Assembly (NCBI GenBank): GCA_001797815.1
Contig: MGQK01000031.1
Coordinates: 35,291-51,664 of the forward strand
From: Deltaproteobacteria bacterium RBG_13_61_14
GTDB lineage: Bacteria > RBG-13-61-14
Direction of reading: 5' to 3'
DNA length: 16,374 bases
The notes below the pieces were generated by a model. That model had not been told where the DNA came from, did no database searches, and saw only the letters and a list, made by a program, of their open reading frames with translations. The translations under genes and the position numbers were made by a program. Every line of letters begins with the position of its first letter. Position 1 is the first letter of the stretch. This document shows, in pieces, positions 1,102 through 4,080 of this stretch.

Positions 1102-1800
1102 GGCAACTACCTCCATCTCAATCAAAAGATCGCTAAATTTCCTTCGTCTTAAATTTACCGCCATTTATAAACTTCTTGAGGGCGCAGGCTGGCCGGCTCT
1201 TTCCCTCACGGAGATGGCTCCAATGAAGTGGGGCTATCCATCCACGCCTCCTCTATCTCCCCGATTCCGCCCCCAAGAAGCGCCCTCCCGCTCCGAAAAA
1301 CTGCAACATTTCTACATATATAGAGAGGTGAAATGAACTTGAGGAGAATGAAAGCCAGGACTTGTAAAATTTATATAACTATTTGTTTTTACATGCTTTT
1401 TCTTGGTTGCCGCCTTTTTCATCTTGATCGCGGCTCCTGGCTCATCATGGATCAAAAAACAGGTTTTCAGCTCAATGTTTCCATTTCTGTAAAGCGCCGC
1501 TTACCATTTCTTCCACTTTCCTCCCACTTCCTCAATCTTTTCCCTCTCTTGCCTTCCCGACATACTCCATACGACATACGATATACCCTCTTCAAACGTC
1601 CCCCCATTCTGCACGCCAACCACCCCATCTTGCACAGCAACCACCCCATATTGCTCAGCAGCCACCCCATCCAACGCGGCAACCACCCCAGGCCAAAGCC
1701 GGTTGGCAGTTGACGGTTGACAGTTGGCGGAAAGCAAAAGGTAGCCGCGACCGCCCCGGTCGCGGAACACCGCGAACCGTGAACCCTTTTACGATCTTGC
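1102..1800. other. Long intergenic region without a convincing gene
   Basis: Between the radical SAM stop and the promoter at 1801 I see no credible protein gene. The part from 1102 to about 1330 has mixed composition with no clear motif. From about 1500 to 1560 the plus strand is a pyrimidine-rich tract of imperfect CTTCC/CTTTCC units. From 1561 to 1783 it becomes a patchwork of short tandem repeats, listed separately. A 126-codon ORF at 1333-1713 has a plausible ribosome site, but its second half is only the translation of these repeats. A small perfect hairpin (CCGCGACC / GGTCGCGG, 1745-1765) lies near the end. It has no T-tract, so it is not an intrinsic terminator. Confidence 0.6.
1561..1783. 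repeat. Patchwork of heptameric and 21-bp tandem repeats
   Basis: Several short tandem repeats lie side by side and nearly all have a period of 7 or a multiple of 7. CATACTC/CATACGA/CATACGA units run from 1561 to 1581. A 21-bp unit beginning CACCCCAT and ending CAAC runs through about 4.8 copies from 1600 to 1700, with unit starts at 1600, 1621, 1642, 1663 and 1684. GTTGGCA/GTTGACG/GTTGACA/GTTGGCG run from 1702 to 1729. CCGCGAA/CCGTGAA run from 1770 to 1783. The units within each block are imperfect copies. The lack of a constant repeat with unique spacers rules out CRISPR. They resemble in style the short tandemly repeated repeats described in cyanobacteria, but no relationship is claimed. 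Confidence 0.75.
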
Positions 1801-1829
1801 TTGACAAGCCTCGGCAAATCCTCTATATA
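1801..1829 (+). promoter_or_regulatory. Strong sigma70-type promoter with dyad over the -10
   Basis: A perfect -35 box TTGACA (1801-1806) is separated by 17 nt from TATATA (1824-1829), so transcription should begin near 1836. The -10 box lies inside a dyad, CCTCT-ATATAA-AGAGG (1820-1835), which could be an operator. There is no long ORF immediately downstream. The first credible gene begins at 2197, after an intrinsic terminator, so this promoter drives either a short RNA or a long leader. The boxes are seen directly and promoter activity is inferred. Confidence 0.7.
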
Positions 1830-1910
1830 AAGAGGCGGTAACGAAGTCGGCCAGAACCTTAACCAGGCCCTCACGCCCTGTCTGAGAAAAGGGCAGAAAA
1901 GAGGAGAGAC

Positions 1911-1955
1911 ATGGAGAAAGGAATTTTGAAACACAGAGACCACAGAGGGCACTGA
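1911..1955 (+). CDS. Possible 14-codon leader peptide
   Basis: ATG at 1911 follows GAGGAG (1901-1906) at suitable spacing and reads MEKGILKHRDHRGH before TGA. The His/Arg-rich end arises because the 9-nt DNA repeat encodes a 3-residue period (HRD-HRG-H), so the peptide may be incidental. Its position between a strong promoter and an intrinsic terminator is what a leader peptide would have. The terminator lies about 130 nt further on, which is far for classical attenuation. Treat as speculative. Confidence 0.2.
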   Translation: MEKGILKHRDHRGH

Positions 1956-2012
1956 GTCTCTTAAGCCAGGGAGACCATTATTCTCTGCGTTCTCTGTGCG
2001 CTCTGTGTTTCA
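1927..2012. repeat. Inverted repeat built of 9-nt units
   Basis: The left arm (1927-1956) and right arm (1983-2012) are reverse complements at 24 of 30 positions, with a 26-nt loop. Each arm is itself periodic. The right arm reads CTCTGCGTT/CTCTGTGCG/CTCTGTGTT and the left is the matching series of CACAGAG-type units. As RNA it would form a long bulged hairpin. The periodic arms suggest a mobile or amplifying intergenic repeat rather than a protein-binding site. Confidence 0.7.
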
Positions 2013-2084
2013 TTCCTGATTCAAGTCTCCGGGTATGGAGAGGTCGCCGTCCCTAAATCAGGATCCCAGGATCCGCGAGCAATC

Positions 2085-2125
2085 AAGCCGCATCAAGGCC
2101 CAAGGGCTAAAGTGCGGCTTTTTTT
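2085..2125 (+). terminator. Intrinsic terminator
   Basis: AAGCCGCA (2085-2092) pairs perfectly with TGCGGCTT (2113-2120), and a run of seven T ends at 2125. It lies only 71 bp before the start of the exported-protein gene. It therefore ends transcription arriving from the left, including from the promoter at 1801, or acts as a conditional attenuator for that gene. Confidence 0.75.
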
Positions 2126-2196: not shown

Positions 2197-4080
2197 ATGA
2201 AAAGCGCGGGCTTGCTAATCCTTGTTATGACTCTTGTCTGCCTGCCCGGACTGGCTTGGGCCCAAACCTGCCCCAATCCGCAAAAGCTCGGGGCCGACTT
2301 CCGGATGACCGACGATGCGAGTTGGAGCATGTTGCCATCCCTTTCCTGGACAGGGTCCGAGTTCGGGGTGGGCTGGTGTGGTTCCAATATCTACTTTGCC
2401 CGCGTCTCCTCATCCGGAACCAAGCTCGGGACTGACCTCCTGGTGACCGATGATGCGACTTGTATCTGGGGGCCATCACTTTCCTGGACCGGGTCCGAGT
2501 TCGGGGTGAGCTGGTATGATAACCGGGATGGAAACTTCGAGATCTACTTTGCCCGGGTCTCTTCCTCCGGGGCCAAGATCGGGTCCGACCTCCGGGTGAC
2601 CAGCGACGCGAGTATTAGCTGGTATCCCTCCCTTTCCTGGACCGGGTCCGAGTTCGGCGTGAGCTGGCAGGATTACCGGGACGCGAACTACCCGATCTCC
2701 GACTGGAGCTACGAGATCTACTTTGCTCGCGTCTCCTCCTCCGGTGCCAAGCTCGGGTCCGACCTCCGGGTGACCAGCGCTGCGGGTTATAGCCAATGGC
2801 CTTCCCTTTCCTGGACCGGGTCCGAGTTCGGCGTGAGCTGGCAGGATTACCGGGACTGGAACTACGAGATCTACTTTGCCCGGATCTCCTCAGCCGGGGC
2901 CAAGATCGGGTCCGACCTCCGGGTGACCGACGACGCGCATGATAGTGAATATCCCTCCCTTTCCTGGACCGGGTCCGAGTTCGGGGTAAGCTGGAATGAT
3001 CGCCGCGACGGCAATGCCGAGATTTACTTTGCCCGAATTTCCTCGACCGGAGCCAAGCTCGGGTCCGACCTCCGCATGACCAGCGACGCGAATTATAGTC
3101 GGTATCCCTCCCTTTCCTGGACCGGGTCCGAGTTCGGGATGAGCTGGCATGATACCCGGGATGGGAATTACGAGATCTACTTTGCGCGCGTCTCTTCTTC
3201 CGGGGCAAAGCTCGGGTCCGACCTCCGGGTAACCAGCGCCGCGAGTGGAAGCTATGAGCCCTCGCTAGCCTGGACCGGGTCCGAGTTCGGGGTGAGCTGG
3301 TATGATGAGCGGGACGGGAACGATGTGATCTACTTTGCCCGGATCGGATACGATAGTGACTGCGACGGTCTGCCCGACGATTGGGAAAGTCTCTACCCCG
3401 CTTGTTTGGATCCCCTCGCCGGCGATTCCCTGGGCAATCCGGATGGGGACGCCTATCCCAATCTGGAAGAATACCAGGGGGGGACGAATCCGTGCGTCAG
3501 CGACTGTGTGGACGCCGACGGGGACAGCTTCGGTCCGGCCTGCCTGCCCGGGCCGGACTGCGACGACGCCGACCCGGATAATTGGACGGCTTGCGCGAGC
3601 TGCCTCGACGCCGACGGCGATAACTGGTTCGTCGGCTGCAACGCTTATATTATCCGCCATGGCCCGGACTGTAACGACGCCGATGGCGCCATTCACCCAA
3701 GGGCAAAGGAAACCCTTTGCGATGGTGTGGACCAGAACTGCAACGGCCAGGCAGACGACGATCGCAACCGGGACGGCGACGCCTATTCGGTCTGCGCCGG
3801 CGATTGCCACGACCGGAATGCGGCGGTTTATCCTGGGGCTCCTGAACTTTGCGATAAGATTGACAACCAATGTCCGGGAGATTGGGGTTACGGGGTCGCG
3901 GATGAGGGATGTGGCAAAAGAGGCCTCGAAGGAGGCGATGGTGGGGGCGGGGGCTGCTTCCAGATCGCTGGGGGTTCCTACTCCGGCCTCCTCTCCATGC
4001 TTCCGGTCCTGATTCTGTTGGGAATCCAATCGTTCCGCAACCTCCCGTGTTTTGGAAAAAGGAAAAAATCCCGGGGCTGA
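2197..4080 (+). CDS. Exported seven-repeat propeller protein with MopE-type metal-binding repeats and C-terminal anchor
   Basis: The ATG at 2197 is chosen over the in-frame ATG at 2035. It follows AAGGGAGGGG (2181-2190) and starts a clean signal peptide (residues 1-22, ending AWA before QTCP), whereas the longer version would run through the intrinsic terminator. The product has 627 residues. Residues about 30-385 hold seven copies of a roughly 51-residue repeat with core PSLSWTGSEFGVSW and IYFARVSSSGAKLGSDLRVT, which suggests a seven-bladed beta-propeller. Next come thrombospondin-3-like calcium motifs (DSDCDGLPDDWE, then NPDGDAYPNLEEY). Residues about 437-568 hold MopE-type putative metal-binding repeats (DADGDSF, PDCDDADPD, CDGVDQNCNG, PGAPELCDKIDNQC). 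The tail has a Gly run with Cys587, a hydrophobic segment and KRKKSR, like MYXO-CTERM or Synerg-CTERM sorting signals. A surface role is inferred and the ligand is unknown. Confidence 0.85.
   Translation: MKSAGLLILVMTLVCLPGLAWAQTCPNPQKLGADFRMTDDASWSMLPSLSWTGSEFGVGWCGSNIYFARVSSSGTKLGTDLLVTDDATCIWGPSLSWTGSEFGVSWYDNRDGNFEIYFARVSSSGAKIGSDLRVTSDASISWYPSLSWTGSEFGVSWQDYRDANYPISDWSYEIYFARVSSSGAKLGSDLRVTSAAGYSQWPSLSWTGSEFGVSWQDYRDWNYEIYFARISSAGAKIGSDLRVTDDAHDSEYPSLSWTGSEFGVSWNDRRDGNAEIYFARISSTGAKLGSDLRMTSDANYSRYPSLSWTGSEFGMSWHDTRDGNYEIYFARVSSSGAKLGSDLRVTSAASGSYEPSLAWTGSEFGVSWYDERDGNDVIYFARIGYDSDCDGLPDDWESLYPACLDPLAGDSLGNPDGDAYPNLEEYQGGTNPCVSDCVDADGDSFGPACLPGPDCDDADPDNWTACASCLDADGDNWFVGCNAYIIRHGPDCNDADGAIHPRAKETLCDGVDQNCNGQADDDRNRDGDAYSVCAGDCHDRNAAVYPGAPELCDKIDNQCPGDWGYGVADEGCGKRGLEGGDGGGGGCFQIAGGSYSGLLSMLPVLILLGIQSFRNLPCFGKRKKSRG
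2293..3351 (+). repeat. Seven tandem ~153-bp coding repeats
   Basis: A near-constant block around TCCTGGACCGGGTCCGAGTT recurs starting at about 2344, 2482, 2635, 2809, 2962, 3115 and 3268. The spacings are 138, 153, 174, 153, 153 and 153 bp, all multiples of three. The 174-bp unit carries a seven-codon insertion (around NYPISDW). Conservation reaches synonymous positions, so the copies arose recently or are being homogenised by recombination. Copy-number change between strains is likely. Confidence 0.9.

Follow-up and report, generated by a model that had tools for sequence, protein, structure and literature searches.

A promoter, leader and terminator unit repeated upstream of exported-protein genes in Deltaproteobacteria bacterium RBG_13_61_14

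In a 16,374-nucleotide stretch of contig MGQK01000031.1 from Deltaproteobacteria bacterium RBG_13_61_14 (hereafter the window), a promoter, a large hairpin and an intrinsic terminator lie directly upstream of an exported repeat-protein gene. This raises the question of whether the interval encodes a small RNA or whether termination gates expression of the gene. Both possibilities had been put forward in an earlier interpretation made from the DNA letters and open reading frames (the sequence-only reading). The features relevant to the question are the following.

1801..1829, + strand: sigma70-type promoter, assigned by sequence (-35 TTGACA 1801-1806, 17-nt spacer, -10 TATATA 1824-1829)
1836..2125, + strand: predicted leader transcript, inferred from promoter, terminator and multi-copy conservation
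1853..1903, + strand: conserved leader core 1 (AGAACCTTAACCAGGCCCTCACGCCCTG...AGAAAAGGGCAGAAAAGAG), mean pairwise identity 0.93 in 6 copies
1911..1917, + strand: ATGGAGA, left heptamer of a candidate target-site duplication, single in most insert-free copies
1918..2034, no strand assigned: inserted 117-bp palindromic repeat with CTCTGTG/CACAGAG motif, absent from 5 other intact copies
2035..2041, + strand: ATGGAGA, right copy of the candidate target-site duplication (two in the window)
2042..2084, + strand: conserved leader core 3' of the insertion (GGTCGCCGTCCCTAAATCAGGATCCCAGGATCC...), 0.92 identity over the AAATCAGGATCCCAGGATCC part
2085..2125, + strand: intrinsic terminator (arms AAGCCGCAT 2085-2093 and GTGCGGCTT 2112-2120, seven T residues 2119-2125)
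2197..4080, + strand: exported 627-aa repeat protein with MopE-type metal-binding motifs (Pfam PF11617)

The unit in the window and its copies in the genome

Both ends of the proposed unit were confirmed. The window contains two TTGACA promoters of comparable quality and three terminators of comparable strength, compared with 0.1 and 0.3, respectively, expected over both strands from 40 dinucleotide shuffles of the window; promoter and terminator at these positions are thus both rare by chance. The terminator hairpin folds with -20.9 kcal/mol. An automatic promoter scan missed the promoter at 1801 only because its -10 rule requires T at position 6. The predicted leader is 290 nt long with the insert and approximately 166 nt long without the insert and one of the duplicates, and the 300-nt predicted transcript has a folding z value of -4.4 relative to shuffled sequences. 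The dyad over the -10 region (CCTCTATATAAAGAGG), to which the sequence-only reading had drawn attention, is present in the window but was found in only one further copy, that on contig C49, and is not general to the unit.

In the genome that contains the window (4.74 Mb in 132 contigs), promoter, leader and terminator were found at five other places, on contigs C49, C82, C124, C96 and C36, and a truncated copy is located on C22. All seven copies have kept the TTGACA element. Mean pairwise identity among the aligned copies was 0.19-0.29 in the upstream flanks, 0.93 in the -35 segment, 0.55 in the spacer and -10 region, 0.70 in the initial transcript, 0.93, 0.82 and 0.92 in the leader core segments, and 0.93 in the 5' arm of the terminator. 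The value for the 3' arm together with the T-tract (0.34) is lowered by gaps and by divergent sequence aligned after the T-tract; the 3' arm is retained in five of six copies and altered in that of C124. Given the high identity inside the unit and the unrelated upstream flanks, similarity follows the transcription unit.

Searches outside this genome gave no homolog of the leader. Its DNA was absent from 59 other genomes, two of the same order included, and a covariance model of the leader produced only chance-level scores in 20 other genomes. A leader pattern had 18 matches in named genomes and one in a viral contig, all of which matched only the 19-mer. The leader matched no Rfam family at either the gathering or a permissive threshold. 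Covariance analysis, which had been suggested for the hairpin and terminator, lent a leader structure no support, with 0 pairs changed on both sides among the copies, and no alternative pairing that might act as an antiterminator was consistent across six leader copies. A ligand-sensing switch is therefore not supported.

The large hairpin as an inserted palindrome

The arms of the large hairpin (1927-1956 and 1983-2012) are 80% complementary and enclose a 26-nt loop without open reading frame. The sequence-only reading had counted this hairpin as a component of the unit, which could not be upheld. As judged from the aligned copies, the hairpin arose when a dispersed palindromic repeat inserted later at this site, and it is not part of the leader unit, because it is missing from all five other intact copies. 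The two ATGGAGA heptamers bracketing the 117 bp suggest a target-site duplication, of which this is a single case; the copy on C82 has ATGGAAA at the corresponding position. The palindrome belongs to a family with 40 matches to CTCTGYGNNCTCTGTGNNCTCTGTG in the genome (at most 2 mismatches; 0 matches with the reversed pattern as control), and among 192 genomes of differing relatedness, 16 contained its motif. At one locus (L002, C79:45775-46305), CACAGAG half-palindromes form a tandem array with a period of approximately 57 bp that adjoins full palindromes.

A link between CTCTGTG repeats and GxxExxY genes, which we had presumed at the outset, was tested in this analysis. Genes of this family (PF13366) were present in 14 of the 16 motif-bearing genomes and in 2 of 16 motif-free genomes, the latter having been chosen by hand from the list. 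Among 30 GxxExxY loci, the motif was located within 260 bp of the gene in 11, and six are bracketed in -/+ orientation as in the window; farther from the gene, over 4.5 times as much sequence, it occurred at three of the 30. One bracketed gene, which matches TIGR04256, resides in the same genome (L183, C75). The window hairpin likewise qualifies as a CTCTGTG-type inverted repeat in -/+ orientation, and it shares with the GxxExxY genes (TIGR04256, PF13366) the motif, this orientation and the presence in genomes that carry such genes. Whereas GxxExxY cassettes have a gene between the repeats, the window contains an empty palindrome, with no GxxExxY gene in the 26-nt loop between its arms. As the motif brackets GxxExxY genes in the same orientation, the window hairpin is best read as a putative gene-less relative of their inverted repeats rather than as a full cassette.

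REP/BIME- or MITE-type repeats are similarly dispersed, intergenic, palindromic and gene-free, and may be accompanied by a short target duplication. In apparent contrast to these, the palindrome family described here is associated with GxxExxY genes and not evidently with a transposase. Searches of a literature collection for the CTCTGTG repeat, GxxExxY and PDDEXK_3 yielded nothing relevant. The tie of CTCTGTG palindromes to GxxExxY genes across unrelated genomes is concrete and testable; moreover, the case illustrates that a dispersed palindrome can pass for a built-in regulatory hairpin.

Genes downstream of the leaders

The exported gene at 2197-4080 is preceded by a ribosome-binding site (GGGAGGGG) immediately 5' of the ATG and begins with a signal peptide (MKSAGLLILVMTLVCLPGLAWAQ). 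At the C-terminus of the protein (window 3940-4080), a Gly-rich, Cys-containing stretch is followed by a transmembrane helix and a basic tail, an arrangement reminiscent of a sorting signal; there was no NCBIfam match.

In the window and on C96 and C36, the unit is directly followed by a co-oriented exported repeat-protein gene. The next gene on C124, approximately 200 nt further on, encodes a sulfatase-like membrane protein, and contigs C49 and C82 end inside a homolog of the window's 3' flank, such that downstream genes are not visible. The exported-protein family comprises about 15 loci in the genome, and the leader terminator was absent upstream of the related genes on C102, C125, C130, C79 and C106.

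In agreement with the sequence-only reading, which had seen no promoter for the exported gene itself, a sequence scan detected no promoter-like site at 2126-2196, between the terminator and the gene; the corresponding interval on C96 contained none either. On C36 the Shine-Dalgarno sequence (GGAGGAGG) is positioned approximately 10 nt after the T-tract, which leaves no space for another promoter and makes the leader promoter the sole nearby candidate. A promoter, a leader and an intrinsic terminator thus stand 5' of the gene with no promoter in between, an arrangement that is strongest in C36.

The earlier statement that the unit contains no long open reading frame holds only in part, as the frame starting with the ATG at 2035 is open and in phase with the exported gene up to 4080. 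The frame on C96 is also open and in phase, as found by reading the sequence. The coding region might accordingly be extended N-terminally, with translation that begins at 2035, crosses the terminator and continues into the exported gene. We regard this as highly improbable in view of the strong ribosome-binding site and the signal peptide that begin at 2197, and of the 2-nt deletion followed by a stop in the C36 copy. Differences among the copies, 52 nonsynonymous versus 13 synonymous, give no sign of coding, and on this substitution pattern a coding reading of 2035-2196 was rejected.

A more serious alternative is a family of trans-acting small RNAs of about 165 nt, with exported genes that use their own promoters or read-through from further upstream. 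Promoter and terminator are self-contained, the leader core is 0.92-0.93 identical across dispersed copies while the promoter spacer has diverged, and the C124 copy is not directly followed by an exported gene. However, in each of the three copies whose next gene lies within 100 nt, that gene is an exported one, the spacing on C36 leaves no place for a promoter, and the layout recurs with unrelated RNA sequence on contigs C34, C35 and C42 (see below). We consider small RNAs possible but rather unlikely. Because the layout is recurrent and because of the C36 geometry, attenuation in cis is favored over a free small RNA. Of the two options left by the sequence-only reading, gating is thus the better supported, and a single-copy small RNA has become less likely.

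Leaders of unrelated sequence and the proposed mode of control

Contigs C34, C35 and C42 show a TTGACA promoter, an interior of 90-270 nt, a terminator of the form AGCCGC...GCGGCT and an exported protein; on C42 a scaffold gap lies ahead of the gene, and the downstream gene was not seen directly. The C34 unit consists of TTGACA-17-TATAGT, a leader of approximately 270 nt and a terminator, behind which begins a gene, interrupted by assembly gaps, for a very large secreted protein. No homology was detectable between the interiors of these three leaders and those of the main group, alignments being no better than those of shuffled sequences. Promoter, terminator and position are the features common to the four leader types, which points to a function in cis. 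Genome-wide (4.7 Mb), the pattern AGCCGC..GCGGCT-TKTKT had 11 matches at about 10 loci (control, 1+1), eight of which are promoter-leader-terminator units of the exported-gene layout. An unselected 1.2 Mb was also scanned with crude, lossy heuristics that missed known cases as well; there, promoter-terminator leaders preceded 1 of 37 signal-peptide genes versus 2 of 365 others, an enrichment that was not significant. Taking this result together with the family members that lack the terminator, the leaders mark a subset of such genes and are not the rule.

These leaders also bear on a third explanation, namely that a duplicated segment has spread with the gene 5' ends of the exported family, so that the likeness reflects recent common descent and the terminator plays no part in regulation. 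The restriction of the copies to one genome, their repeat-rich surroundings and the similarity between the window and C96, which extends up to the signal peptide, fit such a history. It does not account well for the sharp fall in conservation outside the promoter-terminator unit and in the -10 region, nor for a layout preserved by leaders of unrelated sequence, and a terminator that merely insulates would be expected 5' of the promoter, not 3'. On balance this explanation appears unlikely.

With moderate confidence, and on sequence grounds, we propose that the unit in the window is a cis-acting transcription-attenuation leader of the secreted-protein gene. RNA polymerase would start at the TTGACA-17-TATATA promoter, transcribe a leader of approximately 166 nt (290 nt where the insert is present) and in most cases halt at the terminator that ends at 2125. 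Polymerases that read through would go on into the exported repeat-protein gene and thereby set its expression level; the 117-bp palindrome insert would be dispensable for the leader design. We infer that the leader is transcribed, that the gene is reached chiefly by read-through and that the extent of read-through can be adjusted. Termination probably tunes the expression of large secreted proteins in this way. A leader of this kind is ordinary; its repetition before large secreted proteins is unusual. It suggests that this organism, whose lineage has hardly any sequenced relatives, may control costly surface proteins by early termination.

Structured leaders followed by an intrinsic terminator and then a gene are also known from the riboswitches and terminator-type attenuators in Rfam; the leaders described here differ from these in having no Rfam match, no conserved antiterminator and interiors that vary between loci. 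The leaders controlled by the NusG paralog LoaP in the dfn and mln operons of Bacillus velezensis, in which a UNCG-tetraloop hairpin is needed for antitermination, resemble them in promoter, long 5' leader, intrinsic terminator and very large genes, and likewise share their layout between different target operons (PMC12691694). Unlike the LoaP leader, none of ten leader sequences tested contained a UNCG hairpin of at least 4 bp. The leaders might even belong to one regulon, with a read-through factor of its own, such as a specialised NusG paralog, that overrides one type of terminator and so licenses transcription of a set of very large secreted proteins; to this speculation we assign a distinctly low probability.

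Two other loci deserve mention. On the minus strand of L313:377-1441 (C16), a gene whose N-terminus resembles that of a semialdehyde dehydrogenase has a TTGACA promoter and, 26 nt upstream, a strong terminator; these possibly constitute another attenuator. On the minus strand of L316:14093-15415 (C41), TTGACA-17-CAAAAT and a terminator are found 83 nt upstream of a gene for 440 aa with a signal-peptide-like start, possibly a further leader of the same layout.

Further repeats were observed near the leaders. Window positions 1293-1693 correspond to a dispersed element of approximately 400 bp with at least 25 copies in the genome, which was absent from 8 other genomes searched. Its 5' end (AAAACTGCAACATTTCT.CATAT) is conserved, as is its 3' end with about four 21-bp direct repeats (CCCCATTCTGCACGCCAACCA), and the middle is variable. 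The direct repeats lie in different reading frames among the copies, which implies conservation at the DNA or RNA level. Upstream of the leader copies on C82, C96 and C36 (L064, L066 and L067, respectively), a second subtype of the element with a similar 5' end was recognized by eye; on C82 and C96 it appears to carry different 21-bp repeats (about GATTCTTCCTTACCACGACAT). Another dispersed repeat (GTTGGCAGTTGACGGTTGACAGTTGGCGG) occupies window positions 1700-1770 and recurs at well over ten more places in the genome.
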